DNA from: a virus
IMG/VR virus record: IMGVR_UViG_3300025767_000073
Coordinates: 1 to 33,638 of that record
Length of the DNA: 33,638 nt
Direction: 5' to 3' (one strand)
A program made the translations under genes and the position numbers. The notes under the pieces are model-generated. The model worked only from the letters and a program-made list of their open reading frames with translations, ran no database searches and had not been told where the DNA came from. Numbering within the stretch: the first letter of the stretch is position 1; each line of letters begins with the position of its first letter. Below, in pieces: positions 5,834 to 25,749 of the stretch.

Positions 5834-7426
5834 TTATTTAGTTAAAACAAGATTGTCAAATTCACTATTAAGATTGCTAAATGCTTCCCAAGTTGAAAAT
5901 TTATGCATGTTTCCTAAAACTTCCATGAATTTTGTCACAACTAATTTTTTATCTTCAGTTGACTCAATTATTAACTTGCAAATATCAGGTAGAGTAGGAG
6001 TATCACCTTTTCCTACTGCATATTTTCCTTCACTGTTTTTTCTAATTTTAGAACTCTCTGCAGTGCTAGAAACAATTTTTAGTGTTGCTTTTAATTTTTC
6101 TTTACTAGCGTCACTTGAAGAATCAATATTTGCGTTTACATTTGTCTTAATACCAAATCTTATATTTATAAATGAAGAAAGTTTTTTTGCAAAGTTAATT
6201 TCAATATCACTAAATTTTTCTTTATCCATATGATTATAGTGCATCATGTTTTTAGACTGCATAAAGTCAATTACATCTTTTAATATATCGTTATTTTTGC
6301 TAGGCCCTTCTTTTATAAGGCTTTTTTTGTTATTCCTATTATTTTCTTTTATAGAAATTATTGTTTTACCTATGTTCTGATATATAAAAAGTCCTATCGC
6401 TAAAGTAGTAGGCTTTGCTTTTATATTTCCAGCTATATCTATAGCTTTTGCTTTAGCAAAATTAAATAAAGCGTCAACACCTTTTAAAAACAGCGGGAAT
6501 GCAAAAACTGCAGCTAGTCCTATTGGGTTTGAAACACCAAAAACAAACTTAGCAAGAGGAATTCCTCCTTTTACAAGTGCAAATCCTTTTACAGAATTGT
6601 CAGCCATAATATTTATATTTGGACTTTTGTTACCTATAAGGTACTTTTTGACTAACTTATTGTTTTTTGCTACTAAGTTATTTAATTCGCTAATAGTCTG
6701 CTTTAAAAGATAGAAGTTAGAAAGTATAAGAGTTATAAGCGCACAAACCTTAATACCTTTTTCTACCATTTTCTCAGTAATTTCTTCTTTGTCAGTATTT
6801 TGAAGCTGATTATCTTCTTCTAATAAAAACTTAAGACCTAACTCTATCCCTTTGTTTTTTTCAATTAAATATTCTTTGTTGTATATCGCAATATCTTTAA
6901 TGCTATATACTTCATTTAAAATATTATATATTAAATTCTTAGATCGAGTAAGATCATTATGTACTAACTTTGCAAAACTTTTATCTCTAATAGAAAAAAA
7001 CTTTGTAACTCCTGCAGCTGATACAACAGCTTTAATTTCTTCTTCAAATTTTTTAGGATCTTTTAGTCCGCTTTCTATAGCATTAAAATATATTGTAACA
7101 GCAGAACCTAATATTTTCTTAAATGTTTTAGTGTCGTTAATAAATTCAGTAATAACTGAGCTTCCCCATACAGTATTGCTTTTTAACGAAGATATTGCAA
7201 TAGGCGCACATTTTTTAGCTATCTCTAACTGAGCAGTTTTTTTAAAGTTATCACTTAGTTCGCTTTTGTCACTACCAAAAGTTCTACTTGTGTTGCTACT
7301 CTTTTCATCGTCTGTCTGAGTATCTTTTAGATTTTTTTCTTCAACATCTAAGTCTTCGTTTAATGTTAAAAACTTTTTGTTAATTTTATCTAAGTCTTCT
7401 TCTAATAGCAGTTTTAAACTTGTCAT
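5834..7426 (-). CDS. Putative virion protein with central hydrophobic segments
   Basis: 530 residues. The leader MTSLKLLLEEDLDK has LLE at 7-9. A near copy, FLLEEDNQL, recurs at 200-208. Residues 25-60 are polar and disordered. Hydrophobic stretches lie near 227-241, 297-321 (rich in Val, Phe, Ala, Gly and Pro) and 338-350, enough for two or three membrane passes. The flanking sequence is Lys-rich and helical. There is no catalytic motif. A head- or tail-associated protein able to insert into the host membrane during genome entry would fit, but this is an inference. It is the first gene of the leftward block, and the 56 bases upstream separate it from the dCMP deaminase gene. Confidence 0.7.
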   Translation of the reverse strand: MTSLKLLLEEDLDKINKKFLTLNEDLDVEEKNLKDTQTDDEKSSNTSRTFGSDKSELSDNFKKTAQLEIAKKCAPIAISSLKSNTVWGSSVITEFINDTKTFKKILGSAVTIYFNAIESGLKDPKKFEEEIKAVVSAAGVTKFFSIRDKSFAKLVHNDLTRSKNLIYNILNEVYSIKDIAIYNKEYLIEKNKGIELGLKFLLEEDNQLQNTDKEEITEKMVEKGIKVCALITLILSNFYLLKQTISELNNLVAKNNKLVKKYLIGNKSPNINIMADNSVKGFALVKGGIPLAKFVFGVSNPIGLAAVFAFPLFLKGVDALFNFAKAKAIDIAGNIKAKPTTLAIGLFIYQNIGKTIISIKENNRNNKKSLIKEGPSKNNDILKDVIDFMQSKNMMHYNHMDKEKFSDIEINFAKKLSSFINIRFGIKTNVNANIDSSSDASKEKLKATLKIVSSTAESSKIRKNSEGKYAVGKGDTPTLPDICKLIIESTEDKKLVVTKFMEVLGNMHKFSTWEAFSNLNSEFDNLVLTK

Positions 7427-10938: not shown

Positions 10939-12846
10939 TCAATCATGAACATCGATCTTTTTCATTTTAGCGATTGATGCTTGCATTCCCCAGTTAGGAT
11001 CGTTTTTAACTTCAGCAAGCCACAATGTGTAAGTTATATCCTCATTAAAAGATCCCCACACTCGAATCCAAGAAGTATTAGACTCGTTGTCGATAACTTT
11101 AAGGCGCATAAATTCTTTTCCATTCTTTGTAGTTTTTAGTATAACTTCTGAAACCATAAACCAACCTATACCACTCGTACCAGGTGCTATTTCCATTACA
11201 GACTTAACACCTTTTTCGTTTATTTTGTTTATAAATGAATCTGGAAAAAGAATAGAAGTATCAGCATCGTTTGATAGTTCCATAAAGTTTTTAATCTTTT
11301 CTGTTCTGTTCCAGTCTTCAATATGTTGAGTTTCCCTTAATAGCTTATCAACAATAAGCTCTGGGTTCTCGCCTTTTTTAATTGCACGTTTATATTGTGT
11401 AGGCGTAATTCCCCATTTTGTCTTCTTAAGAACGTTATAGTTTTCAATAATAATATCTAGTAGTTGCCTATGATTTCTTAGCTCACCATTTTTAAACTCT
11501 AACAAAGATGACATTGCTTCCATTTTACACAATGAAGTGAAAGCTGTCTTGTTAAGCTTTGAACTTTTCCACATTCCTTCGCTGTTATAAAATAAATCAT
11601 CTAGACATCTATAAGGTCTGAACATAAAGATTTCCTCTACAGCTTTATCACCTACACCTTTTAATGATGTAAGAGGAGGTACAAACGCATTAATTTCTTC
11701 TGAATATTCCCATTCAATACCTGAGTAGTTAATGTCTACAGGCGCAATCACATAGCCATACGATTTGATCTCTGCGATAACTTTTGACATTTCTTTAGGA
11801 TTACCATTAGCAGTCTGTAAAATTGTCGCCAGCCATTCTTTTTCATAGTGTGTATGAAGCCATGCAGCGTAGTAAGAATCAATCGCGTAAGAAATAGCGT
11901 GACTTTTATTAAAACCGTACAAACTGAAGAATACGATTTCTTCCCAAAGCTTTGAAGACACAGACTCTGGTACATTATTTAGCTCTTTAGAACCTTTAAT
12001 AAATTTTTCTCTTGCAACGTCACGCTCAGAACCTTTAGAATGCAATGTGTCAAGTGACTTCTTGACAAGAGTCTTTCTAAGCTTGTCTGACTCGCCTGGA
12101 TCAAAACCTGCAAGTTTCTGTGCCAAAAGCATAAACTGCTCTTGAAACGTAATAAAACCTAACGTAGGCCCTAGAATTTCTTCGATAATAGGGTGATCGT
12201 ATTTGATTTGATCTTTGTTCTTTTTAGTCGCAACATATTTTCTATGTACGTTTGCCTTAAGAGGTCCTGGGCGATAAATAGCAGTAAGCGCTGCAAGCTC
12301 TTCAATATTATCAGGCTTAGCTTCCATTGCAAAGTTACGTGCACCACTTGCTGTAAACTGAAATACTCCTGTAAATCTTCCATCTTCATAAACATGCTTC
12401 CATACTTTTAAATCATCTTGCTTGTGAAACCTGCAATTTAAATGATCGTCAAAAAACTTTTTAGCTTCTAAAAATGTTGGATTTTTGTTACCTTGTTTTT
12501 TAAGAATTCTATAGATACAATTCTCAACATCTTTAAGAAGTGTAAGACCTAAGAAATCAAACTTTAGAAATCCGTTATCTTCTAGATTTCGAAAGTTCAT
12601 ACCTTCTGTCCAAGGCGTTTGAAGCTCACCACGAACGCCAACAATAGGCATTGATTTTGAAAGCTCATCTGCGTCAGCGATTATAACGCCTCCGGCGTGT
12701 CTTCCGCAATTTGATATTGTAATATTGTTTGCAACAATGTTAGGATGAGAATCATAAAAGTTTTTACTATCAATATTATGATGAATATCATATACTGGCT
12801 TAATTTCTTTTGTATTTTTAATGCTTTTGATCTTTAATAATTCCAC
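10939..12846 (-). CDS. dnaE: DNA polymerase III alpha subunit, C-terminal fragment with split-intein C part
   Basis: 635 residues from a GTG start (AAGGA nine bases upstream) that overlaps the end of the homing endonuclease gene by 29 bases. Residues 1-46 are the C-terminal half of a split intein ending in ISN, followed by Cys+1. The extein (589 residues) begins CGRHAGGVIIAD, matching the DnaE H-x-AGVVI region. It continues with the rest of the polymerase core (GVFQFTASG, IYRPGPL, FQEQFM, FNKSHAISYA), the helix-hairpin-helix region (LKGVGDKAVEEIF) and a short OB-like tail (GWFMVSEVI, then MRLKVIDNES). This fragment binds the template and incoming nucleotide and continues fingers and beta-binding regions. 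After trans-splicing the polymerase would total about 1,190 residues, normal for DnaE. It is the third large piece of a gene broken at least twice. Confidence 0.93.
   Translation of the reverse strand: MELLKIKSIKNTKEIKPVYDIHHNIDSKNFYDSHPNIVANNITISNCGRHAGGVIIADADELSKSMPIVGVRGELQTPWTEGMNFRNLEDNGFLKFDFLGLTLLKDVENCIYRILKKQGNKNPTFLEAKKFFDDHLNCRFHKQDDLKVWKHVYEDGRFTGVFQFTASGARNFAMEAKPDNIEELAALTAIYRPGPLKANVHRKYVATKKNKDQIKYDHPIIEEILGPTLGFITFQEQFMLLAQKLAGFDPGESDKLRKTLVKKSLDTLHSKGSERDVAREKFIKGSKELNNVPESVSSKLWEEIVFFSLYGFNKSHAISYAIDSYYAAWLHTHYEKEWLATILQTANGNPKEMSKVIAEIKSYGYVIAPVDINYSGIEWEYSEEINAFVPPLTSLKGVGDKAVEEIFMFRPYRCLDDLFYNSEGMWKSSKLNKTAFTSLCKMEAMSSLLEFKNGELRNHRQLLDIIIENYNVLKKTKWGITPTQYKRAIKKGENPELIVDKLLRETQHIEDWNRTEKIKNFMELSNDADTSILFPDSFINKINEKGVKSVMEIAPGTSGIGWFMVSEVILKTTKNGKEFMRLKVIDNESNTSWIRVWGSFNEDITYTLWLAEVKNDPNWGMQASIAKMKKIDVHD
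12709..12846 (-). other. Split intein 2, C-terminal half (IntC)
   Basis: 46 residues ending NITISN before Cys+1 (codon 12706-12708). The block F-like part is KPVYDIHHNIDSKNFYDSH-PNIVANN. The penultimate residue is Ser rather than the usual His, as in the cyanobacterial DnaE split intein (ASN). It pairs logically with the IntN half at 13853-14128 to join ...QNRS to CGRHAGG of DnaE. Confidence 0.85.
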
Positions 12847-13804
12847 TAATATATTCCTTTAATTGTTGATTGTCAAATTTTTTGACATTACTTTCCCATA
12901 TTGTTATAATATTATAACCTGATTTAACTACATTTGCACACTTGTTGTTATCATATTCCCATATTTCTCTTGCTAGTAATTTTTTATGTGGGTGATAATA
13001 ATTTTCTTTATAAATAGATGGGTTTGCATGCCAGTAGTCGCCATTAAATTCAATATATAGATTTAAGTCTTTTATATAAAAGTCGTATCTATACTTCTTG
13101 TTACAAGACTTTTGCTGAACGAATTCTACATTTAATGACTCAAGTATGTTTGCTATTCTTTTCTCATAGCTAGAAGTATAACTTTGCTTTTTAATGGTAC
13201 CGTTTTCTAATGCTTTAAAGTATCCTGCTAACATTTTTCTATGTATTTCTAAATACTTAGAAGGATTAGTTTTAGATATGTGTACTATTTTTCCTGCGTC
13301 GTATCCTTCCTTTAAAGTCTTAGATATTTTACGCCTTATTATTTTGAGATCTTCTTTAGACTTAAACTTCCAATAATATATCTTTTCTTCTCTTTCTTTT
13401 TCTGTTAAAGAATATATTGGGTTCTTTTTTCCAGTTCGACTATCGGCATATTTTTTTATGCTTTCATGATCATGTTTAGTTAAACCTTTATTCCATACTT
13501 TATTTTCTTTAAAGTATTCTTTTCCTGCTTCTGACGTTGTTCTTTTTTTAATTTTCATATGCTTTAAAAAATTTAAAATATCACTTTTTTGAACAGGAAA
13601 AGGATTAAATAATAGTGTAATTTCTTCTGATATTGTCCTAGCAGACTTTTTGTTTTTAAGATACTCATGTACAATGTCGTACTCTTCTTTGTATACATCA
13701 TAAAAATAAATCATTTTTTTTGATTTAGTTTGTATATTTTTATAGTGAACACTTACATGTCTTCCTAGATTTTTATATTCTTTATTGCAAATTTTACATA
13801 ACAT
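12818..13804 (-). CDS. Free-standing Vsr-like homing endonuclease in the fractured dnaE
   Basis: 328 residues from the ATG at 13802-13804, which has GGAGGA ten bases upstream. Residues 2-25 form a C2H2-like finger (CKICNKEYKNLGRHVSVH). The middle is Lys-rich with NUMOD3-like DNA-binding segments (VWNKGLTKHD, SRTGKKNP, GYDAGKIVH). The C-terminal 110 residues are a Vsr/EDxHD-type nuclease: SYEKRIANIL, YRYDFYI, LYIEFNGDYWHANPSIY, EIWEYDNNK, GYNIITIWES. This family was described in marine metagenomes inside fractured genes whose two parts carry split inteins (Dassa and colleagues, 2009), exactly the position here. It would cut intein-less dnaE alleles in competing phages. Its end overlaps the start of the C-terminal dnaE fragment, implying coupled translation. 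Confidence 0.88.
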   Translation of the reverse strand: MLCKICNKEYKNLGRHVSVHYKNIQTKSKKMIYFYDVYKEEYDIVHEYLKNKKSARTISEEITLLFNPFPVQKSDILNFLKHMKIKKRTTSEAGKEYFKENKVWNKGLTKHDHESIKKYADSRTGKKNPIYSLTEKEREEKIYYWKFKSKEDLKIIRRKISKTLKEGYDAGKIVHISKTNPSKYLEIHRKMLAGYFKALENGTIKKQSYTSSYEKRIANILESLNVEFVQQKSCNKKYRYDFYIKDLNLYIEFNGDYWHANPSIYKENYYHPHKKLLAREIWEYDNNKCANVVKSGYNIITIWESNVKKFDNQQLKEYISGIIKDQKH

Positions 13805-13849
13805 ATAATTATTCCTCCAGCAATTAATTATATGCAAGCGGTTTAATCA

Positions 13850-14626
13850 TTAAAATTTAATTAAGACATCACTTTGACTTAATTCGCAAACTTTTTTATA
13901 TCCTTCTTGCGTCATTACTTCATGATCGCCAGTTAAATTTAATTTCTTTCCACATTCTGTTTCTATTTCAAATACTTCTTTTTTGCCCATATAATGTAGT
14001 TCATAGTCATGATTAAATTTTTGATTGCCTTCATTGTCAATATAAGCAACGCTGTCTGAAGATGGATCAAGCTCTTCTATATCCATATAACCACTATCAG
14101 TTAAAATATGTGTGTCTTTAGTAAAACAACTTCTATTCTGCATGAATAATGACTCAACATGCTTTTCAACTTCTGGGTATTTTTGCATAAACTCTTTATA
14201 CTCAGGAGAGTATTTCATGCAATCTTCGTGCTTAAGAACGAATACAGACTTTTCTTGATCTTCGTCTCTAGCTAAAGCCATTACTTGGTCATGAAGAGGA
14301 CCTGTAACTTTATTAACTTCTTCAAATGGTACATCATAAAACTTAGCAATGTCTTTTACAAGTGACTTAAGCTTAAGTGTATTAAAATTAGAAACAGGAA
14401 TAACAGCATCATTTCCATAAAGCTCACGAGCTGCATTAATTAATTCGTCACGATCACCTGCGTCTGTATCAATATCAGGCCAAGATGTATTATGTGTTAA
14501 CACAAAATCTTTGTCAATGCTTTCTGAAATGTAAAAGGTATGATCACCTTCTACTTCAATATCGATCATGTCACGCGAATAATGAACGTAATTGATTTCT
14601 TGAATTTCATATAATTTATCAGACAT
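13850..14626 (-). CDS. dnaE: DNA polymerase III alpha subunit, middle fragment flanked by two intein halves
   Basis: 258 residues: IntC of intein 1 (1-46), extein (47-166) and IntN of intein 2 (167-258). The extein begins TSWPDIDTDAGDRDEL, the DnaE catalytic motif with the first two active-site aspartates, and runs to ESLFMQNRS, just before the H-x-AGVVI region. It alone holds the catalytic aspartate pair, so the polymerase cannot work until both trans-splicing events occur. The weak ribosome site (AAGAAAG) may limit its supply. The 120-residue extein is short and needs two reactions, making it a natural bottleneck. The gene lies between a rightward cargo gene and the homing endonuclease. Confidence 0.93.
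   Translation of the reverse strand: MSDKLYEIQEINYVHYSRDMIDIEVEGDHTFYISESIDKDFVLTHNTSWPDIDTDAGDRDELINAARELYGNDAVIPVSNFNTLKLKSLVKDIAKFYDVPFEEVNKVTGPLHDQVMALARDEDQEKSVFVLKHEDCMKYSPEYKEFMQKYPEVEKHVESLFMQNRSCFTKDTHILTDSGYMDIEELDPSSDSVAYIDNEGNQKFNHDYELHYMGKKEVFEIETECGKKLNLTGDHEVMTQEGYKKVCELSQSDVLIKF
13853..14128 (-). other. Split intein 2, N-terminal half (IntN)
   Basis: 92 residues starting at Cys (codon 14126-14128): CFTKDTHILTDSGYMDIEEL is block A, and LTGDHEVMTQEGYKKVCEL is block B with the TxxH-type motif (GDHE). It ends at the stop codon without an endonuclease domain, so it is a split mini-intein half. Its partner is at 12709-12846. Confidence 0.88.
14489..14626 (-). other. Split intein 1, C-terminal half (IntC)
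   Basis: 46 residues with block F (MIDIEVEGDHTFYIS) and block G (FVLTHN), followed by Thr+1 of the extein. Thr is a permitted +1 nucleophile. It joins ...FLGRHR of the N-terminal fragment to TSWPDIDTD, directly at the catalytic aspartate motif. Confidence 0.88.
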
Positions 14627-14717
14627 ACAATACTTTCTTGATTTTATTTTTTTATTATATTATATTATATAATAGTTAAAAATACACATATTATTTAAAT
14701 TCTAAAAGGAAAATTTT

Positions 14718-15692
14718 ATGAGGACAAAAGAAATATTGCAAGCTTGGCGAACATTTACAAATCAATCTCATATTAATGAAAGAGTTTCATTAAACATGAA
14801 TCAAAAACTAAGAGACATATCAAGTTCTAATACGGACTTTTTAAGTCAATATAATCTACAGTTAAAAATGAACAGCCTGCCTGTTTTAATAATAGACATA
14901 AACAATAATATTACAAAAAGAGATCCTGACTTTTTACAATTACTAAATATGTTCGAAGAAGACCCGAACTTAAGCAACAGATATGAAGACACTGAAGATG
15001 TTGCTAATGGGATTGATGGTCGTCTTCTTTTCCAGTGGGAAAACAATAAACAAGTTTTATCATCTTTATTAAAAGTATTACAACATTTTGATGCTTTAGA
15101 CGCTAGCACTTTAAATCAGCAAGATATTCAAAATAGCTCTCTTATTATATTTAAAGAACAATCATTTAATGAAGACGACCCTTATTCAAGAGATTCTTCT
15201 TCTATAGAAAAAGGCGTATATGACAATGCTATGTGGACACTACATGATGTAATGCACAGAATAAATGAAGACCTATTTCCTGATCAAAATAGGACTTTTA
15301 TAGATAAGTCATTTGAATATTTGCCTGAATTTGAATTTTCAGAAAGATTTTTTAAAATTGTAAGTCAGGCAATTTCTCATAGTAGCGATAAATTTACAAA
15401 GCACTTATTTAGCACAGGAGAAGACTTTACTCCATCTTTTATGATATTCTTGTACATGTATATCATAGAAGTAGATAATAATAAAATAAACGTCACAAAA
15501 AGCCATTTAAATCTCAAACAATTCTTGAGAAGTGTTTATAAAATAGAAAGCGGTGATATTAGCCAAAATGAATTAGAAAGAATGAAATTTGTTTCAAGCA
15601 TTGCTAAAGTCACAAAAAATATTTTAACAGATATCAATATTGTTTTGGAAAAGAATAAAAGCATACAATTGCAATTGTATAAAAAATTCTAA
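14718..15692 (+). CDS. HDxxH-family leader-bearing protein, paralog 1
   Basis: 324 residues. A clear ribosome site (AAAAGGA) precedes the ATG. The leader MRTKEILQAWRTFTNQSHINE ends in INE at 19-21. A central motif AMWTLHDVMHRINE places W173, H176, D177 and H180 in a W-x2-HD-x2-H arrangement shared with the proteins at 18808 and 19899. A second shared element near the C-terminus (GEDFTPSFMIFLYMY) corresponds to DHFATIVPY and DLFPSIISY in the others. HD..H could bind a metal, so a hydrolase is possible, but no known family is recognised. The gene lies rightward between the first and second dnaE fragments, where the related fractured genes carry a homing endonuclease. It may be a cargo gene that replaced one. 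Confidence 0.75.
   Translation: MRTKEILQAWRTFTNQSHINERVSLNMNQKLRDISSSNTDFLSQYNLQLKMNSLPVLIIDINNNITKRDPDFLQLLNMFEEDPNLSNRYEDTEDVANGIDGRLLFQWENNKQVLSSLLKVLQHFDALDASTLNQQDIQNSSLIIFKEQSFNEDDPYSRDSSSIEKGVYDNAMWTLHDVMHRINEDLFPDQNRTFIDKSFEYLPEFEFSERFFKIVSQAISHSSDKFTKHLFSTGEDFTPSFMIFLYMYIIEVDNNKINVTKSHLNLKQFLRSVYKIESGDISQNELERMKFVSSIAKVTKNILTDINIVLEKNKSIQLQLYKKF
15663..15680. repeat. Perfect 18-bp palindrome at a convergent gene end
   Basis: ATACAATTG followed by CAATTGTAT, within the last codons of the cargo gene and 35 bases before the end of the first large dnaE fragment. As RNA it could form a 7-bp stem with a TGCA loop. No U-run follows on the plus strand, so a terminator role is doubtful. It may be a protein site or chance. 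Confidence 0.3.
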
Positions 15693-15714
15693 GGATTAAA
15701 TACAGCTATTGTCT

Positions 15715-17304
15715 TTATAGTTTAATTAGTTTATCACCTTTTTGTAAATGGCACGCCATAGTTTCTACTTCTTGACCGTTTCGATTAACTATCCATCTAT
15801 GATTAGGAGAGCAAACAATCTTTCTTCCATTAAATATAATTTCAATAGCAAGGTCATGCTGAGTCACTGCTTTGTCAAGAATTTTCTTGTACTGACCTGT
15901 ATGTGTTAATACTTTTTCACCTTCGACAACATCTTTGATTTTCTTTTTGCCAGCTTCAGACATAACATAAGTATCTTCGTCTAAACACCTATGTCTACCT
16001 AAGAATCTACTCCAAAGCAAGTTATAAGGAATAGGATCAAGCTGAGTAATGCCTAATAAGTAGTTAATCAAGCTGCCTGCGCCGCTGCCTCGCCCTGGAC
16101 CTAAAAGAGTTTTTTGCTCTGCTTTTTTAAAGATCTCATACATAGTAATAAAGTAAGCTTCGTGACCAAGATACTTAATATCAGATAACTCTTCTTTGCA
16201 TCTTTCAATATATTCTTTATTTGTATGAAGGTTATGCGAGACTAGCGCATCCTTGACAAGATCAGTTAAATGTTGAAAAGGTGTCTTGTTAGGTACAGAG
16301 ATTGTAGGCAACTTAGCGCTTGTATCGATCCATGTATCTTCGAATTCATTCCAAACAATATCATGCGTTCTATTAATAGCGTCACGTACTAGTTCTTCAC
16401 TTCCTTTGTAAAAATCATATACAGGATATGCTGAAAGGAATTCGTCCCACATTTGTGAAGCATTCTTAGGGTATAGCTCGCACTTTAGATCTTCAAACTC
16501 TGGTAGAGTTAGACCGTCTTTCTTGCCAAGCCAGCCTAATTTTTTATAGAGCTCTCGAGCCTGCCACTTATCTGCTGTAGGATAATGCGAGTCAGGAGTG
16601 CAAATTAGAGGAATTCCTGTAAGCTTGTGATGCTCAATAAGATAGTCATTTACTGTATGCTGCTTCTCTAGCTTGTTAAACTGTAGCTCTAGCTTAAAGT
16701 TGCTTTCACCTACACAATCAACAAATCTATCAGTTAGGTTAGAAAGCTCAGCTTGAATTTGATCTCTGCTTTGACCATGAACTTCGCCACGAAGAATTCT
16801 GTTGCTGTAGATACCGCCAAGGCAAGCTGTAGATACATGCAATCCTTCACCAAATTGTTTTAACATAGCAAAGTCAATACGAGGATATCTGTAGAAGCCA
16901 TCCTTGTACGACAGCTTAACTAGATTAAATAAGTTTTGCAAACCTACACGATTTTTTGCAGTTACAACTAGATGATAACGTCGTTTCCATTCATCTTGTA
17001 AAACATCAACTGACTTTGTTTCGTCCTCGTCTTCAACAACAAGACCTCCACTTTCATCGTCTGCGTCAATATCAACTTTTTCTTTAAGCTTTTTCTCTTC
17101 GCTTTTAGTTGCTTTTGCAGCTACAACTGCATCTTTATGCGCTTGATAGTCGCTTTTCCACTGTTGAAGTGAAGGAACAAAATAAAATTCTACGCCATAT
17201 ACTTGGCGAAAGTTACGACCACTTTTTTGCATTTTAACAGCATGTGAATGTGCGTGTGCTAGACCGTTACCGTTGCCGTGGTCTGTCAAAGCCCAAGCGT
17301 CCAT
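15715..17304 (-). CDS. dnaE: DNA polymerase III alpha subunit, N-terminal fragment with split-intein N part
   Basis: 529 residues from the first in-frame ATG, but DnaE-like coding continues upstream in frame to 17370 (STFDGLGYPADHINFVLSES), where a TAG at 17374-17376 blocks it. That ATG has no proper ribosome site, and starting there would lose the PHP-domain HAH metal motif. Visible parts: PHP domain (ALTDHGNGNGLAHAH, acidic insertion near 75-110, HLVVTAKNRVGLQNL, HVSTACLGG, CTPDSHY), then the palm start with GPGRGSGAGSLINYLLGIT, the DnaE glycine-rich G-x-GRGSGAGS motif, and LLWSRFLGRHR. Residues 440-529 are intein IntN. PHP domains in DnaE are structural or proofreading. The true N-terminus probably comes from one of the two leader-codon copies upstream, by an unknown mechanism. 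Confidence 0.92.
   Translation of the reverse strand: MDAWALTDHGNGNGLAHAHSHAVKMQKSGRNFRQVYGVEFYFVPSLQQWKSDYQAHKDAVVAAKATKSEEKKLKEKVDIDADDESGGLVVEDEDETKSVDVLQDEWKRRYHLVVTAKNRVGLQNLFNLVKLSYKDGFYRYPRIDFAMLKQFGEGLHVSTACLGGIYSNRILRGEVHGQSRDQIQAELSNLTDRFVDCVGESNFKLELQFNKLEKQHTVNDYLIEHHKLTGIPLICTPDSHYPTADKWQARELYKKLGWLGKKDGLTLPEFEDLKCELYPKNASQMWDEFLSAYPVYDFYKGSEELVRDAINRTHDIVWNEFEDTWIDTSAKLPTISVPNKTPFQHLTDLVKDALVSHNLHTNKEYIERCKEELSDIKYLGHEAYFITMYEIFKKAEQKTLLGPGRGSGAGSLINYLLGITQLDPIPYNLLWSRFLGRHRCLDEDTYVMSEAGKKKIKDVVEGEKVLTHTGQYKKILDKAVTQHDLAIEIIFNGRKIVCSPNHRWIVNRNGQEVETMACHLQKGDKLIKL
15718..15987 (-). other. Split intein 1, N-terminal half (IntN)
   Basis: 90 residues starting at Cys (codon 15985-15987). 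Block A is CLDEDTYVMSEAGKKKIKDV and block B is IVCSPNHRWIV. The length and style match the fast gp41-type split inteins known from phage metagenomes. The stop follows block B with no endonuclease. The partner IntC is about 1.1 kb downstream at 14489-14626, beyond the cargo gene. Confidence 0.9.
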
Positions 17305-17367
17305 TCCTTGCGATTCAGATAGGACAAAGTTTATGTGATCTGCTGGATATCCTAAACCGTCAAATGT

Positions 17368-17454
17368 AGATACCTAGGAGAAGGTTGAATGCGCATGCAA
17401 ACCAACGAATCTGTTGGGTCTAAGCATATCAAGTTCAACCTTCTCTAGATACCT
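17368..17454 (-). promoter_or_regulatory. Long nested RNA hairpin around a duplicated dnaE start region
   Basis: On the minus-strand RNA the arms at 17434-17454 and 17368-17389 pair over about 21 bp, with two G-U wobbles and one bulge (core AGAAGGUUGAA with UUCAACCUUCU). The loop contains a second stem, CCAAC/GUUGG (17402-17417), and an AUGC/GCAU pairing. A perfect Shine-Dalgarno (AAAGGAGGT, 17451-17459) overlaps the 5' arm. The 3' arm contains the TAG stop and ends exactly where uninterrupted dnaE coding resumes. Confidence 0.7.
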
Positions 17455-17481
17455 CCTTTCTGTGTTAAATGTATTATTCAT
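17374..17481 (-). pseudogene. dnaE: Second copy of the dnaE N-terminus, stopped in frame (35 codons)
   Basis: ATG at 17479-17481 opens a 35-residue frame ending RPNRFVGLHAHSTFS, then TAG. Next come GTA and the continuing dnaE codons TCT ACA TTT GAC GGT. DnaE proteins have HS-x2-S-x2-DG here, so HSTFS + TFDG would be canonical if nine bases (TAG GTA TCT) were skipped. It is in the same frame as the 15715-17304 fragment. Compared with the copy at 18497-18562 it encodes the same RFVGLHAHSTF but with mostly different synonymous codons, so it came from a diverged allele rather than a fresh duplication. It may be a relic, or a functional start if the stop is bypassed. Confidence 0.6.
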
Positions 17482-17549
17482 TATATACCTTTTTAATATG
17501 TTTAAATTGTGATTTATTATAAAATACAATGTTATTATTTACACGTATT

Positions 17550-18458
17550 TTATTTACCTTCCCATAAAATCTTATCCGAGTAATCTCTTCTTAACAAATC
17601 ATATTCGTCTCCTGAAATTATTGCTAACATTAAGTCTGGGTGCGACTTCTTAAATTCAGAAATTTTTTCCGCTGATCGATTGTCCATATATCCTTTAATT
17701 TCAAAATATATGTTTCCAACCTTAAAGTCTGGTGTATAAGTTATACCTCCAGGTATTTCAAACGTATCTGGCTCATATTGAAATTTTATTTTATTATACT
17801 CCAAAACTCTAGCAAAGTTAGCTTCCCAGTTGCTCCTAACATAAAGATTTATGTCCTCTCTAAAACCTCCGCTGCCAAAAGAGTATATTTTATATTTTTT
17901 AATTCTTTTTGCAGCAGCTTTTGACATGTTACGTCTAACTTCTTTTGAAAACTTAAAACCTTTTCTTGCGTTTGAAAGTTTTATTTTTGCTTGACTTGCC
18001 TTCGTCCAGTGATCGACACCATATTTTTTTAAACAAGTTTCTTGAGACTTGTTTTTCATTTCTCCAGAAGCCCATCTTTCTGTTAGACCTTTTGAAAGCT
18101 TTTCTAAAGCTTCTTTGCTAAATTTTCTTTCGCCATTATCATATTGTCTTTTTAAAGTTTTAGACAATTTTTTATTTTGTTCTTCAGTTCTTTCATAAGA
18201 TCCGTTTGTCTTTCTTGTTTCAACACCTTTTTTAAGTTTACAAGATTTACATTCCGTCTGTTGTTTAAGTTTAGTTTTATCTAAAAATTCTTTATTGCAA
18301 ATATTACATTTTTTTTGTTGTAATGGTGATGTGTTCTTGTTTTTCTTTCTAAGCTTATAAGCACATTGTTTACTACATGTCTTTTGTGACCTCTTCTTAT
18401 AAATTACTTCAAATTCTTTATTACATATTTCGCATTTGTTTTTAACGTATCTTGGCAT
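17550..18458 (-). CDS. Homing endonuclease-like protein with zinc fingers and PD-(D/E)XK-type nuclease
   Basis: 302 residues from ATG 18456-18458, with a perfect AAAGGAGGT ribosome site. Two Cys4-type fingers start the protein (CEICNKEF ... CSKQC, and CNICNKEF ... CKSC). Lys-rich NUMOD3-like segments follow (YDNGERKFSKEALEKLSKG, ARKGFKFSKE). The C-terminus is a nuclease: RSNWEANFARVLEYNKIKF, YTPDFKV and YFEIKGY give an E...PDF...EIK core. Such proteins spread by cutting uninvaded alleles. It lies precisely between two copies of the first dnaE codons, at the PHP HAH motif, showing that dnaE was the target. It differs in nuclease type from the Vsr-like enzyme at 12818. No group I intron core was seen around it. 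Confidence 0.82.
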   Translation of the reverse strand: MPRYVKNKCEICNKEFEVIYKKRSQKTCSKQCAYKLRKKNKNTSPLQQKKCNICNKEFLDKTKLKQQTECKSCKLKKGVETRKTNGSYERTEEQNKKLSKTLKRQYDNGERKFSKEALEKLSKGLTERWASGEMKNKSQETCLKKYGVDHWTKASQAKIKLSNARKGFKFSKEVRRNMSKAAAKRIKKYKIYSFGSGGFREDINLYVRSNWEANFARVLEYNKIKFQYEPDTFEIPGGITYTPDFKVGNIYFEIKGYMDNRSAEKISEFKKSHPDLMLAIISGDEYDLLRRDYSDKILWEGK

Positions 18459-18496: not shown

Positions 18497-18562
18497 TTAA
18501 AATGTGCTGTGCGCATGAAGCCCGACAAATCTATCAGGTGGAATAATATTGCTTATTGACAA
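18497..18562 (-). CDS. dnaE: First copy of the dnaE N-terminus, a 21-codon fragment
   Basis: A TTG start (18560-18562) follows an AGAGGA ribosome site and opens 21 codons ending PPDRFVGLHAHSTF, then TAA. This is the normal beginning of a DnaE PHP domain. Its last codon TTT (18500-18502) joined to TCT at 17370-17368 would give HSTFSTFDG, the canonical DnaE spacing, so 1,129 bases (17371-18499) behave like a precise insertion between two codons. As it stands the frame makes only a 21-residue peptide. An ATA or other upstream start is possible, but TTG has the best spacing. Confidence 0.65.
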   Translation of the reverse strand: MSISNIIPPDRFVGLHAHSTF

Positions 18563-18807: not shown

Positions 18808-19794
18808 ATGACAAAGTTAAACAAAAAAGAATTTAAGCAACTTTTAACAGAATGGAATGCTTATATTAATGAAAGATCAATTAAAGACTTTGGCAACTTT
18901 ACAGGCATAAGAGACGAACAGGATAAATTTGTTAAGACTGTTCCTGTAGACTTAAATTTGTATGCAGTAGGTGACTATTATGTTGACGAAAAAATGAGCA
19001 TGCCTATTTCTTATGTTTTATTAGAGTCTATGAAAAATAGCTCGTATGTTTTTCAAGAAATAAATAAAGGTTTAATTTTAGAAAAATCTGCCATTAACGA
19101 AATGATTGAAGTACTAGAGACTATTTTAAATAACTCTAATTTTACATATAAAGATAGAAAAAATAATTTAATAAAAGATGAGAAAATAAAAGAAAACTTA
19201 ATTGTAAACTTAAAAACAATGAAGTCAGATCTTATTTCGCTAAGGTCAGATAAAGCTGGAATAATGTTGTATTTCCCTAGAATGGATAGCTTTGTAGATG
19301 ATATGGCAGACGGTTCTATAAATAAAATAGGTAGTATAACAGACGAAGCAGTATGGAAAAATAGCTTGTCTTGGGAGTTAAAGCATGATGTTTTTCATTA
19401 CTTTGAATCAATACTAGAAAACTCAAAATCAAATAGTTACAAATTTCTAAGAAATGCTTTTCTACAAAAAAATATATACAAAATATTAGTAAGCTTCGTG
19501 GTTCCTGATCAAATGCTAAAAAGCAAAGATCCATCTATAAGATTTGGTAGTAGCTTAAATGATGGAGATCATTTTGCAACCATAGTTCCTTATATAAGGT
19601 CACGTGAAAACAACGAGTCAAACAAAAAAGCATTTGTAAACAAGTGTTTAAAAATATCTAACGATAAAGGGATTACTCTTTCACAAAACGAGATTAATAC
19701 TTTAAACGACTTTTTTGTAAACGCGCATAACTGCTATGATGAGATTGAAGTTATATTACAAGACAAGATTGTTATTCAACTAGCACATGGTTAA
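18808..19794 (+). CDS. HDxxH-family leader-bearing protein, paralog 2
   Basis: 328 residues. The leader MTKLNKKEFKQLLTEWNAYINE carries LTE and INE (20-22) and is almost the same as the leader of the unrelated protein at 25204. The family motif is WELKHDVFHYFES (W189, H193, D194, H197), preceded by a hydrophobic strand (GIMLYFPRM) as in both paralogs. The C-terminal DGDHFATIVPYI matches the second family element. There are no membrane segments and almost no Cys. It is the first of five rightward genes. The ribosome site GAAGG is a little far (12 bases) from the ATG. A three-codon ATG frame overlaps the start, so translation may be modest. The function is unknown; a metal-dependent hydrolase is one possibility. 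Confidence 0.75.
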   Translation: MTKLNKKEFKQLLTEWNAYINERSIKDFGNFTGIRDEQDKFVKTVPVDLNLYAVGDYYVDEKMSMPISYVLLESMKNSSYVFQEINKGLILEKSAINEMIEVLETILNNSNFTYKDRKNNLIKDEKIKENLIVNLKTMKSDLISLRSDKAGIMLYFPRMDSFVDDMADGSINKIGSITDEAVWKNSLSWELKHDVFHYFESILENSKSNSYKFLRNAFLQKNIYKILVSFVVPDQMLKSKDPSIRFGSSLNDGDHFATIVPYIRSRENNESNKKAFVNKCLKISNDKGITLSQNEINTLNDFFVNAHNCYDEIEVILQDKIVIQLAHG

Positions 19795-19805
19795 TCAATA
19801 ATAAG

Positions 19806-19858
19806 TTAAATGTTTTTAAGAAACTATATAAAGCTTTTAGTAAATTAAATGTTTTTAA
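19806..19858 (+). repeat. Direct repeat and remnant of a paralog gene end
   Basis: TTAAATGTTTTTAA occurs at 19806-19819 and 19845-19858. Between and overlapping them, 19816-19836 is identical over 21 bases (beginning TTAAGAAACTAT) to the last codons of the gene ending at 22831 (22799-22819). Both are followed by a similar AGTAAATTAA. This intergenic stretch looks like the 3' scar of a deleted WCTS/LRV paralog. Confidence 0.55.
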
Positions 19859-19898
19859 AATATAATTAATTGTCAACAAATAAACAAGGAAGATAAAA

Positions 19899-20831
19899 AT
19901 GAAAAAAACTTTAGAAACAAAATTAATACTTGAGACATGGGACAGATTTTTAAACGAGAGAGGTAATGGTTACGTATATACTTCTATCTTGAACAAAATA
20001 GAAAGAGAATGCGCTATTATATGCACTGATGCTAGCAATGGGGATATAATAAAAGAGCTACAAGAGTCAGGAGTTGAATTTAATGATGCGTCAATAGGTT
20101 CTGACGCGATATTTTTCGACAAGAGAAAATATCCTGAAGCAATAGACTATCTTGAAAGAAATCTTAGTTTTTACTCAACAAGTGATCATGAGGAACTTGA
20201 TAGTGGTGACTCTGCACCAATTTTTATTGTAGACATTGAAAACTATGCAGGAGATTTTAATGAAGCAAGTTCATCACCTTCTTTTTCTGAGAAGTTTGAG
20301 TGGCTTATACATGATATAGGTCACATTCTTTATGAAAATAGTCATGGATTTGAAACGTTACCTTACTTTAATGAGTTGGACGAAGATACAATTAATAATT
20401 ACAAAAAATTCTTAAATAATTCTTTAAAAATAAAAGATCATCAAGTAGATGTAGTAAACAAACTTAGACCAGATGCTGGCAAAACTGATGAAATTAGTCC
20501 TGACGAGATAAAAAGTGGAAAGGTTAACACAAGAAAAGGTGCGTCAGATCTAGTAAATGAACTTGCTTCTTGGTTTACTGAAATTAATTACACGAAATTT
20601 GTAGGTCATGATGACTTATTTCCAAGTATCATCTCTTACTGTCTATTAAGAATGCCAGCTCCTAACAACTTATCCGAGCTTAAAAAGCACATAGACTCTT
20701 TGCAGCTTTCTGACGTAGCAAAGCTTTATTTATTATTGGTAAACCACAAAGTCAATGAAGACTTTGACCCAGAAAATTCAAACTCCATACTGTTTTCAAG
20801 ATTTAATAATAAAATAGTATTTTTTAATTAA
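19899..20831 (+). CDS. HDxxH-family leader-bearing protein, paralog 3
   Basis: 310 residues with a good ribosome site (AAGGAAG). The leader MKKTLETKLILETWDRFLNE ends in LNE at 18-20. The family motif is FEWLIHDIGHILYE (W135, H138, D139, H142), again following a hydrophobic strand (APIFIVDI). The second element is GHDDLFPSIISYCLLR. Between them a short insertion (GKTDEISPDEIKSGKVNTRKG) distinguishes it from the paralogs. Overall identity to the other two is low outside these motifs, so the family is old. HDxxH with a following Glu is compatible with metal binding. The function is unknown. It lies between the likely deletion scar and the WCTS-family gene at 20882. Confidence 0.75.
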   Translation: MKKTLETKLILETWDRFLNERGNGYVYTSILNKIERECAIICTDASNGDIIKELQESGVEFNDASIGSDAIFFDKRKYPEAIDYLERNLSFYSTSDHEELDSGDSAPIFIVDIENYAGDFNEASSSPSFSEKFEWLIHDIGHILYENSHGFETLPYFNELDEDTINNYKKFLNNSLKIKDHQVDVVNKLRPDAGKTDEISPDEIKSGKVNTRKGASDLVNELASWFTEINYTKFVGHDDLFPSIISYCLLRMPAPNNLSELKKHIDSLQLSDVAKLYLLLVNHKVNEDFDPENSNSILFSRFNNKIVFFN

Positions 20832-20881
20832 TACTGGGTTTCTACTTAAGCAATACACTGTGCATAAAAAAGGAACAACGC

Positions 20882-22831
20882 ATGAGAGATTTATTAAATG
20901 AGTGGAGAAACTTTCTAAATAGCGACTTGCTCAATGAAATATCAATTAAAAGATTTCAAGAGAATTATCCTGAATTTGACACATCTAAATTTACACCACA
21001 GCTTAAAGGAAATACTGACTACTTAGATGTTATTTCAAACTCAATTAGAGCCGGACAAAATCACAGTCCAGATGATTACATTCAGCAGTTTGAGTTTTTT
21101 AAAAATTCTATTGAGCCTAGTAGAAATGACGAAGAGTTTTTGACTGTAAGAATTCCAGGTGACGAAGATATTTCTTTAGTTGGTAAAATAAATCAAGGAT
21201 TTTGTTTAGCAACATACGATGATATACAACAGTTTCAACAAGCTAGAATGTATGTGCTAGGAAAAGGTAGCAAAAGAAATTTGACTTCTGCATACGTTTC
21301 ATCGCTAGCTGAAGCTAACGAAGAAGACTTTGAGCTAGTTGCAGAAAATGAAAATTGGATTGTGTTTTATCCTAAGACAATAAAAGGATCAATAACTTTA
21401 GCAAGATCATACTGGGATGGTAGTAAAGTTTCTTATGATGAAACATTTAATCCTAGCAAAGGTTTTGGACAAAATACAGGAAAAATAAGCTGGTGTACAT
21501 CTGTTTCTGGCGGCGGAAACATGTTTAATAACTATCATAGAAAACTTAATCTTCATATGTATTACTGCATTAATAAAATGCCTGGTAGTATAAATGATCC
21601 TGCAAGAAAATTATGTGTTAGCTTTGTAAAACAATCAGGAAATGTTGTCTTTCAAGGAGGCTCAGCATCTGTAGATGGAGATAACAAAGAGATTGACGAG
21701 AACGCAGCTAAATCTTACTTGGGCAGCATTTTAAGAAAATTAGTAGAAGATTCTTCACAAGAAAAGCGTCTAGAAATTGATTTTGAAAGTTATTATAGCT
21801 CTATTAGTTTTGAGCAATATTTAACAATGAGAGCTGCAAACGAACAAAATATAGAAGACTTTACACAAGAGTTCGGACAAATTGTTAAATACTCTAAAGA
21901 CAAAGAAAAAATATCTAGACACGCTTTGTATGAAGACAAATCAGATATAATGAAGTCTTACGGTGAAATTGCTGTTGCTAGTAATAGAAATTCTAGCACT
22001 GACTTGTTGGAAGACTTAGCTTATAATGGAAGCCCTAGAGCACAAGTTGCTGCAGCAACAAACCCAAGTACTCCGTTAGAAGCAGCAATACATGTTGCAA
22101 ACAATTCAGGAGATCAAGGAAAATGCACAATAGCAAAAAATCCTGATACTAATCCTTCTGTATTGTCTGTTTTATCAAAAGATAAGTCTGTCATGGTTCT
22201 TCTCTTTGTAGTTAAAAATCCTAACACGCCAAAAGAAGATCTTTTAAGATTAGCAAAGTATGGAGAAGATGGAATTAAATTTAAATTAGCTTCAAATAAA
22301 AATCTAAGCAGAGAAATAATAGACGTATTATATGAAGATGGTGACGAAATGGTTCATTTAGCAATTGCTAAAAACCTAAACACACCTACACAAATTTTAT
22401 CAGACTTAGTTAATTACGACAACGAAAGAATACTATGCGCAATTGCAGAGAATGAAAACACACATCCTGATGTGTTATCAGGCATTGCTGAAAGAGGTAA
22501 AGAAAAGGCGAAAGCTATTGTTGCTAAAAACCCAAACACACCTACAGAAGTATTAACAAAACTTTCTAGACACGCTTCTTTAAATGTAAAATCAGGCGTA
22601 GCTATTAATCGCAATACAGACCCAGAAATTTTGGCAATGTTTGCAAAGTCAGGCGATCATAAACTAATCAAATGCATTGCAGGCAATACTAGCACACCTT
22701 ATAAAATCTTAGTATCATTATCAGAATATGGTCCAAGTGATGCAAAAGAACTAGTTCGTAATAATCCAACTTATATTGCTAATCAAAATGAAAGCATGTT
22801 AAGAAACTATATAAAGCTTCTTATTGTCTAA
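20882..22831 (+). CDS. WCTS-family protein with C-terminal leucine-rich-variant repeats
   Basis: 649 residues, ribosome site AAAAAGGA. The leader MRDLLNEWRNFLNSDLLNE ends in LNE at 17-19. A core at 150-255 is shared with the genes at 22976 and 31145: FYPKTIKGSITLARSYW, then ISWCTSVSGGGNMFNNYH (W204, C205, T206) and RKLCVSF. The invariant Cys in WCTS and surrounding small residues look like an active site, but I know no matching enzyme. Residues about 363-630 hold roughly ten 23-27-residue alpha repeats of the form VAxNPNTPxEVLxxLA, the leucine-rich variant (LRV) type that builds a curved binding solenoid. A virion-packaged effector whose repeats bind a host target is one reading. The repeats could alternatively be structural. 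Confidence 0.78.
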   Translation: MRDLLNEWRNFLNSDLLNEISIKRFQENYPEFDTSKFTPQLKGNTDYLDVISNSIRAGQNHSPDDYIQQFEFFKNSIEPSRNDEEFLTVRIPGDEDISLVGKINQGFCLATYDDIQQFQQARMYVLGKGSKRNLTSAYVSSLAEANEEDFELVAENENWIVFYPKTIKGSITLARSYWDGSKVSYDETFNPSKGFGQNTGKISWCTSVSGGGNMFNNYHRKLNLHMYYCINKMPGSINDPARKLCVSFVKQSGNVVFQGGSASVDGDNKEIDENAAKSYLGSILRKLVEDSSQEKRLEIDFESYYSSISFEQYLTMRAANEQNIEDFTQEFGQIVKYSKDKEKISRHALYEDKSDIMKSYGEIAVASNRNSSTDLLEDLAYNGSPRAQVAAATNPSTPLEAAIHVANNSGDQGKCTIAKNPDTNPSVLSVLSKDKSVMVLLFVVKNPNTPKEDLLRLAKYGEDGIKFKLASNKNLSREIIDVLYEDGDEMVHLAIAKNLNTPTQILSDLVNYDNERILCAIAENENTHPDVLSGIAERGKEKAKAIVAKNPNTPTEVLTKLSRHASLNVKSGVAINRNTDPEILAMFAKSGDHKLIKCIAGNTSTPYKILVSLSEYGPSDAKELVRNNPTYIANQNESMLRNYIKLLIV

Positions 22832-22975
22832 TCTTAAGTAAATTAATATGTCAAGAATGCAACATAAAGTATTTACACTTACAATAAAATAATAAATAGC
22901 AGTTATGTAACTTTAAAATTTATTAGATAACTTAATTACTCTATAATATTTATATTTATAAAAAAGGTTGTGTAT

Positions 22976-25117: not shown

Positions 25118-25203
25118 GAAGCTACAACAATAAAATCATTTTTTATCTAAACATACACTTTGCTAATTAATTTAATATATAAAAATAAATAAAAGGAAAA
25201 AAA

Positions 25204-25749
25204 ATGTCGAGAATGTCAAATAAAGAATTTAAACAACTATTAACTGAGTGGACTAGAAAAATAATTAACGAGTCTGATGCAGCTAATTTAAAAGGAGAAA
25301 GACAAAAGCTTGAGTTTGTAAAAAATGCAAATCCTAGTAGCACACAAGACAGAAAAACTTTAGCTGTACTCTCTCAAGACAAAAGTGGAGAAGTTAGAAA
25401 AGCAGCTGCTTCTACGCAAGGTCTTAATGCGGAGCAACTTGCAAAATATTTCTCAGACGAAAGAAATGAAGCTGGAGACTTAACGTCAGTATTTTCTGCT
25501 AATAGAGAAAATTTTAATACTGCTGTATTAGATCATATATTTGATGCTGTAAAAAAATCTAAAACACTCGCTTATTTGTCGAATGTTTTTGCAACTCACG
25601 AAGATACTTCTGAAGATGTACTTGAAGAGTTAGCTGAAATTGGCATTAAAAATAGTAGCAGCATTTTGCTTAGAAAAATATTAGGTAATAGAAACTGTCC
25701 TTCTTACGTTAAAAAGAAAATACAATCTTCGATTAAAGACATGAAGTAA
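25204..25749 (+). CDS. Small leader-bearing alpha-repeat protein
   Basis: 181 residues, ribosome site AAAAGGA. The leader MSRMSNKEFKQLLTEWTRKIINE (INE at 21-23) has KEFKQLLTEW exactly as in the HDxxH protein at 18808, although the bodies are unrelated. The body carries two or three LRV-like helical repeats (NPSSTQDRKTLAVLSQDKSGEVRKAAAS, then FATHEDTSEDVLEELAEIG and ILGNRNCPSYVKKKI), related to the C-terminus of the protein at 20882. It may be a stand-alone binding module, or a remnant of a larger WCTS-family protein supplied with a new leader. It ends the rightward block, convergent with the two-TM gene. Confidence 0.72.
   Translation: MSRMSNKEFKQLLTEWTRKIINESDAANLKGERQKLEFVKNANPSSTQDRKTLAVLSQDKSGEVRKAAASTQGLNAEQLAKYFSDERNEAGDLTSVFSANRENFNTAVLDHIFDAVKKSKTLAYLSNVFATHEDTSEDVLEELAEIGIKNSSSILLRKILGNRNCPSYVKKKIQSSIKDMK

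Follow-up and report, generated by a model that had tools for sequence, protein, structure and literature searches.

Genes fractured by split inteins and accompanied by free-standing endonucleases were reportedly described by Dassa et al. in 2009 (NAR 37:2560, cited in PMC7090010). Programmed ribosomal bypassing in phages is firmly established for a single gene, T4 gene 60, with the Hau3 terminase as one more likely case (PMC5009743); gene 60 combines matched codons, a stop beside the take-off codon, a stem-loop and hairpin zippering (PMC5009743), and it is interrupted by the gene of a homing endonuclease, mobA (PMC2988022). In synthetic constructs, ribosomes reportedly make short hops past stop codons (Weiss et al. 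1987, listed in PMC5009743), and a 2016 review stated that natural in-frame stop hopping was not known (PMC5009743). No newer report of natural in-frame stop hopping was found in the literature searched, whose coverage excludes most subscription journals. Here we analyse 33,638 nucleotides (nt) of the IMG/VR virus record IMGVR_UViG_3300025767_000073, a whole stretch hereafter called the window, which carries dnaE on its minus strand. We assign a probability of about 0.74 to the reading that the dnaE of this marine phage has been invaded at three conserved sites, two of which would be mended by split inteins and the third by a stop-hop bypass cassette.

The window was compared with related contigs and loci, which carry labels of the L001 type. 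Scanning IMG/VR with dnaE fragment 3 yielded 80 loci, and a stop-element set of about 40 contigs was gathered by pattern scans and profile scans. The first stop-element set was found with a pattern demanding the stop, and the set found with an endonuclease profile is the fairer sample; elements recovered independently through that profile also have the stop directly 3' of the take-off codon. The contigs are uncultivated, and in the phage isolate collection no match reached 60% identity to dnaE or to HEG0, the endonuclease-like open reading frame (ORF) of the cassette.

Three dnaE fragments and two split inteins

dnaE is divided among three minus-strand ORFs (17304-15715, 14626-13850 and 12846-10939), with DnaE domains matched on all three and intein N-halves matched on fragments 1 and 2 (Pfam, NCBIfam), which bears out the description, in a sequence-only reading of this DNA, of a dnaE in three pieces with two split-intein pairs. 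TIGR01445 matches IntN2 with E 6e-9 and IntN1 weakly with 0.03, and Intein_splicing matches the two N-halves with E 3e-4 and 5e-7. The features, in gene order, are as follows.

15988..17367, minus strand: dnaE extein 1 as read after the proposed hop, TFDGLGYP...FLGRHR (domain matches, alignment to relatives)
15718..15987, minus strand: IntN1, 90 amino acids, site c (domain match, intein alignment)
14718..15692, plus strand: unrelated 324-amino-acid ORF between fragments 1 and 2 (family search, none matched)
14659..14687, minus strand: promoter-like motif before dnaE fragment 2 (motif scan)
14489..14626, minus strand: IntC1, 46 amino acids, ending LTHN, with Thr at +1 (intein alignment)
14129..14488, minus strand: dnaE extein 2, 120 amino acids, with PDIDTD and two of the three catalytic Asp (domains, alignment)
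13853..14128, minus strand: IntN2, 92 amino acids, site d (TIGR01445, E 6e-9)
12818..13804, minus strand: HEG1, free-standing homing-endonuclease-like ORF between fragments 2 and 3 (phrog_22677, 3339 and 559; PF18741 sub-threshold)
12709..12846, minus strand: IntC2, 46 amino acids, with a GTG start overlapping HEG1, ending ISN, with Cys at +1 (intein alignment)
10942..12708, minus strand: dnaE extein 3, 589 amino acids, with the third catalytic Asp in KFDFLGL, fingers and HhH (domains, alignment)

Fragment 1 ends in SRFLGRHR/CLDEDTY..., fragment 2 runs from ...VLTHN/TSWPDIDTD... to ...FMQNRS/CFTKDTH..., and fragment 3 contains ...NITISN/CGRHAGG, the slash marking the extein-intein boundary. 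Joined, the exteins amount to 1,148 residues, or 1,191 with the N-terminus upstream of 17304, and after splicing in silico they match the dnaE of marine phages that have it uninterrupted over the whole length, at 76-80% identity, an agreement far above chance. Both junctions, FLGRHR/TSWPD and FMQNRS/CGRHAGG, show zero gap relative to the uninterrupted dnaE of related marine phages, as the sequence-only reading had said of the extein edges. The catalytic aspartates had all been placed on the 120-residue middle piece; two of the three do lie there, whereas the third, aligned with E. coli D555, is in the KFDFLGL of fragment 3.

Cys1 and the block B His are kept in both N-halves (C...SPNH and C...TGDH), and the C-halves end in LTHN/T (IntC1) and ISN/C (IntC2), retaining the terminal Asn and a Thr or Cys at +1. 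At site d the +1 residue is Cys in the window and Ile or Val in intact relatives, which is what splicing would require. Two unrelated split inteins would join three separately translated polypeptides by trans-splicing at GRHR/TSWPD and QNRS/CGRH. IntN1 and IntN2 share 19% identity and IntC1 has no match to IntC2, a divergence that makes it plausible that IntN1/IntC1 and IntN2/IntC2 are orthogonal pairs.

Most of the 80 loci have an uninterrupted single-ORF dnaE, and about 20 are interrupted by inteins, mostly split ones with an endonuclease-like ORF between the halves. Five intein sites were found: a (STA/CLGG), b (GRG/S), c (GRHR/TSW), d (QNRS/CGRH) and e (FNKS/NSHA). Many independent contigs are broken at these sites too, so that the breaks are not sequencing errors, which the sequence-only reading had named as a possible refutation. 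Besides the window (sites c and d), six loci are fractured at two or more sites (L013, L030, L067, L068, L075 and L078), and in L013 (3908-10791) dnaE is in four pieces with three split inteins (a, c and d), more intein-fractured than the window. Judged by these relatives, the window is one member of a heavily invaded gene family, and relatives with two or three fractures weaken the claim that a doubly fractured dnaE with different pairs is notable.

A contiguous mini-intein without an endonuclease occupies site c in L071 (8221-8643); IntN1 and IntC1 align with it, and it is likely the unsplit form of the window's first intein. For the site-d intein the only counterpart found is in L013, where it is also split. 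The site-c intein has sequence matches in PDB that include gp41-1 (E 0.004), and its predicted fold matches inteins and Hint domains, a result that is supportive only, as the model was built from N-halves (pLDDT 69) and has a poor C-terminus. The likeness to the gp41-1 split intein thus covers sequence, at that E value, and fold, whereas the host gene and insertion site are different.

Both the split-intein reading and its proposed link to fractured phage genes are well supported, and the split-intein part of the locus belongs to this known type. As in the fractured genes of Dassa and colleagues, a conserved replication gene of a metagenomic phage is broken by a split intein, a free-standing homing-endonuclease-like ORF lies in the site-d gap, and a promoter-like element precedes a distal fragment. 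Unlike them, a single dnaE combines two split inteins of different kinds in the window, and three in L013, and the window's dnaE has an additional interruption that is not an intein. Of the two gaps, that of the second break alone contains a homing-endonuclease-like ORF; the one at site c is occupied by the unrelated opposite-strand ORF. By resemblance, endonuclease-like ORFs occupy the site-c gap in L031, L052, L067 and L078. In L043 (4880-8670) the halves of the site-c split intein are separated by 3.4 kb with several ORFs, including a large opposite-strand endonuclease-like ORF. The split-intein pairs of dnaE, from sites a to e, add new candidates for orthogonal inteins.

The N-terminal cassette and its stop

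The third interruption, at the N-terminus, is absent from the sequence-only reading and is the more novel feature. That reading let the gene begin at 17304, which does not hold: the true start lies upstream, an in-frame TAG stands between two conserved N-terminal parts, and an endonuclease-like ORF lies upstream. From ATG 17304 the frame runs back through VSTFDGLGYPADHINFVLSESQG to the TAG, which is preceded by ...RFVGLHAHSTFS. The insertion splits the PHP motif as HAHSTF/STFDG, which reads HSTFSTFDG in intact relatives.

18500..18562, minus strand: copy 1, the displaced original dnaE 5' end, (TTG)SISNIIPPDRFVGLHAHSTF then TAA, with the cassette insertion point after HSTF (sequence comparison)
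17550..18458, minus strand: HEG0, homing-endonuclease-like cassette ORF, PD-(D/E)XK / T7 endonuclease I-like (PHROG endonuclease and resolvase matches)
17516..17544, minus strand: promoter-like GTGTAAAT-N-TATAAT, carried by the cassette before copy 2 (motif scan)
17377..17481, minus strand: copy 2, recoded dnaE N-terminus, 35 codons MNNTFNTERRYLEKVELDMLRPNRFVGLHAHSTFS, then the stop (sequence comparison)
17452..17457, minus strand: Shine-Dalgarno-like AGGAGG at the 5' base of the hairpin, within the ORF (anti-Shine-Dalgarno pairing)
17434..17453, minus strand: predicted hairpin 5' arm GGTATCTAGAGAAGGTTGAA (fold z -5.3 and -6.3; covariation)
17369..17389, minus strand: predicted hairpin 3' arm over the take-off codon, stop and gap (fold, covariation)
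17368..17379, minus strand: putative take-off TCC, stop TAG, GTA and landing TCT; decoding would restart at ACA (17367) (element table, take-off/landing test)

The first copy of the dnaE N-terminus, ending HSTF-TAA, lies about 1.1 kb upstream of the second, with HEG0 between them. The copies differ at 11 of 33 nt, every change being synonymous, and among 20 distinct examples of copy 2 the nonsynonymous/synonymous ratio is 0.17. Equivalent copy-1 remnants are found upstream of the endonuclease ORF in L002, L006, L043, L053, L081 and L082. HEG0 matches phrog_29037, 9019 and 945, as well as a T7-like endonuclease by tblastn, with no Pfam family above cut-off; its family is invariant at SxWEAN, PDF and ExKG and at E212, D244, E253 and K255, the acidic and Lys residues expected for catalysis. 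Members of this family (36-100% identity) stand directly upstream of copy 2 in 16 elements, the window included. The promoter-like motif GTGTAAAT-N-TATAAT has 3 matches in the window against 0.31 expected from shuffles.

This arrangement of cassette and stop recurs in about 40 contigs. Each of the 30 elements tabulated, most of which were found with the stop-demanding pattern, has a stop immediately 3' of a Ser codon (TAG in 16, TAA in 11, TGA in 3), and the distance from the stop through the landing triplet, defined as the three bases at the position of the Ser codon in intact genes, is 5-12 nt, after which TFDG or its equivalent follows. The resumed frame is 0 in 16 elements, +1 in 9 and +2 in 5, so that 14 of the 30 are out of frame; the window, with TCC TAG GTA TCT after the recoded N-terminus, is in frame. 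A further stop in the target frame occurs in L043, L030 and L104.

The 5' arm of the hairpin lies within the cassette-specific N-terminal extension and the 3' arm ends at the take-off codon, running on through the stop and gap in the window and several other elements. The stem is 87% paired over 13 families, with 19 double-change cells against 5.6 after shuffling (0/500). A Shine-Dalgarno-like motif stands a few nt upstream of the stem; tested over a fixed interval at that position, the summed anti-Shine-Dalgarno pairing of 19 elements was -153.9 kcal/mol against a shuffled mean of -81 kcal/mol, and the hairpin, once formed, would place this motif beside the landing triplet. Where dnaE is adjacent to an endonuclease and has no stop (L134, L136, L143, L147 and others) the hairpin is also absent; the hairpin therefore travels with the stop and not with the endonuclease. 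Conversely, stop and hairpin persist in loci that have lost the endonuclease ORF (for example L005, L014, L052, L078 and L079), which suggests that the carrier gene depends on them. In L134, L136, L143, L147-L149, L154-L157 and L159-L161 a HEG0-family ORF immediately precedes a dnaE whose start is intact and has neither stop nor hairpin.

The take-off and landing codons agree in the purine/pyrimidine class of the third base in 21 of 22 element types (Fisher p=3e-5), and in the 18 types left after removal of close relatives the match persists (p=2e-5). Across all three positions, 50 of 66 are identical. Landing triplets other than Ser codons (ACG, ACC, GCC, TTG) retain the third base of the take-off codon, a prediction of re-pairing by the same peptidyl-tRNA. 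The plainest case is L079, in which TCG leads to TCG over a bare TAG (TCG-TAG-TCG); TCT is matched by TCT in L052 and L135, and AGT by AGT in L144. The longest gap, 35 nt, is found in L021 (about 7186-7240), where HAHS TCG TAG is followed by a GC-rich terminator-like hairpin and then TCG GGTTTCTCA, take-off and landing codons being the same; no HEG0-like ORF was seen upstream.

Proposed bypassing and the alternatives

By analogy with T4 gene 60, we infer that the stop element is a site of programmed bypassing. At HAHSTF/STFDG a mobile cassette would have supplied, in order, the endonuclease, a promoter, a recoded N-terminus, the Shine-Dalgarno-like motif, the hairpin, a Ser codon, the stop and a short gap. 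The ribosome would translate copy 2 as far as the Ser codon, where the stop would halt it; the hairpin would then re-zip behind it, moving the peptidyl-tRNA-Ser forward until it met the matching triplet at the stem's foot, and decoding would restart at TFDG. One DnaE in the window would take one ribosomal hop and two trans-splices. Recoding and gap probably also render the carrier gene immune to its own endonuclease, and the likely evolutionary role is that an essential gene stays working while the endonuclease target in the carrier is destroyed.

The cassette differs from T4 gene 60 in gene (dnaE against a topoisomerase), in take-off codon (Ser against Gly) and in gap (5-12 nt, or 35 in L021, against 50), and also in that its hairpin is long, with the take-off codon at the end of the 3' arm, that it brings a recoded gene start of its own and that tens of natural variants exist. 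The proposed hop resembles the synthetic hops reported by Weiss et al. 1987 in passing a stop within a few nt to reach a matching codon, most plainly in L079, and differs from them in being natural, conserved and linked to a hairpin. Relative to known endonuclease-linked bypass, the gene, the codon, the short gap, the self-supplied gene start and the many natural versions would be new. It is quite probable that marine phages carry widespread and diverse mobile cassettes of this kind, with an endonuclease, a recoded dnaE start, a Ser take-off codon with stop, and a hairpin that pushes the ribosome and brings the Shine-Dalgarno-like motif to the landing codon for a hop of 5-12 nt (38 nt in one case), and that in the window such a cassette is combined with two split inteins in one essential polymerase.

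Two accounts dispense with the hop and are each unlikely. In one, the stop ends copy 2, which serves as a leader peptide or complementing fragment, and DnaE is made from ATG 17304 (MDAWALTDHG), lacking its first ~43 residues. This ATG is in frame and a Met is kept there in most elements; in L102, L110, L116 and L117, however, it is missing, with starts at various other places (ATG or GTG at codons 4, 11 and 14, TTG at codon 4, ATG at codon 30 after the gap) and no common site, and re-initiation at MDAW was rejected on this ground. Moreover, in the resumed frame the stretch from the stop to MDAW shows protein-level conservation, and a restart gives no reason for landing triplets to match or for a covarying hairpin to end at the take-off codon. 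The other account invokes a different recoding that leaves extra residues in the product: stops of the in-frame class would be read through or decoded by a suppressor tRNA, and in the other elements the ribosome would shift by +1 or +2 at the stop. Four out-of-frame elements (L041, L052, L103 and L114) are indeed open in the target frame right after a shift, and the related element of L145/L146 resembles a pure +1 shift with no stop; but the three elements with a further target-frame stop would meet it, and neither the match between take-off and landing nor the use of all three stop codons fits, the latter having also led us to reject stop reassignment. No tRNA gene was found in the window.

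The remaining explanations carry less weight. Endonuclease ORFs are common in phage introns, and a self-splicing intron could have removed stop and endonuclease together; yet Rfam gave no match at the gathering threshold and, with E relaxed to 10, nothing beyond chance-level matches. Copy 2 comes after the endonuclease, and the 5-12 nt from stop to landing in 30 elements are too short, so that a group I or other intron at the N-terminus was rejected and its chance is minimal. Decay of dnaE or a faulty assembly would likewise look like stops and split ORFs, but tens of contigs, drawn from different samples, share the sites and the stop element and show compensatory changes, and coding constraint is retained, which makes this extremely improbable. 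That the inteins do not splice and DnaE works as a non-covalent complex of its pieces is very unlikely: the ISN end of IntC2, in place of HN, speaks for it, and the retention of Cys1, block B His, terminal Asn and +1 Thr or Cys, together with the site-d Cys, against it.

What the sequence itself shows is the structure of the gene, the junctions closing with no gap, the covariation of the hairpin, the pattern of stops and frames, the matching of take-off and landing triplets and the link with the endonuclease; the hop and the trans-splices are inferred from it. Several points weigh against the proposed combination. The stop elements are kin by descent and horizontal spread, so their counts are not independent events. 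Seven element types match at two of three landing positions only (those with ACG, ACC, GCC or TTG), and in the in-frame class plain readthrough would yield a product longer by two or three residues. The constraint downstream of the gap speaks for the hop, the nonsynonymous/synonymous ratio over 21 codons being 0.32 in the inferred frame against at least 1.3 in the other frames, but it may partly predate the insertion. The leader peptides, read by eye only, showed no common nascent-peptide motif like that of gene 60, and IntC2 lacks the usual penultimate His.

If bypassing holds, a family of some 40 natural variants, in which hairpins covary and landing sites match the take-off codon, would open it to comparative study, back the idea that bypass arose as protection from a homing endonuclease, and provide short natural hop sites for engineering.

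Variant elements and other features

In L145/L146, 60-110 nt after the endonuclease ORF, a stop-less dnaE seems to shift by +1 at TTT C (HSTF, followed by SLGDG), which is possibly a frameshift version of the cassette. The take-off in L024 is of GAS type. Promoter-like GTGTAAAT-N-TATAAT positions on the minus strand of the window are 10295, 14687, 17544 and 18615, and related loci have the motif upstream of dnaE too. Several plus-strand ORFs of the window (14718-15692, 18808-25749, 31145-33277) share by eye an N-terminal motif like LLxEWxxFLNE; one ORF of this type sits between dnaE fragments 1 and 2, and the one tested had no family match.

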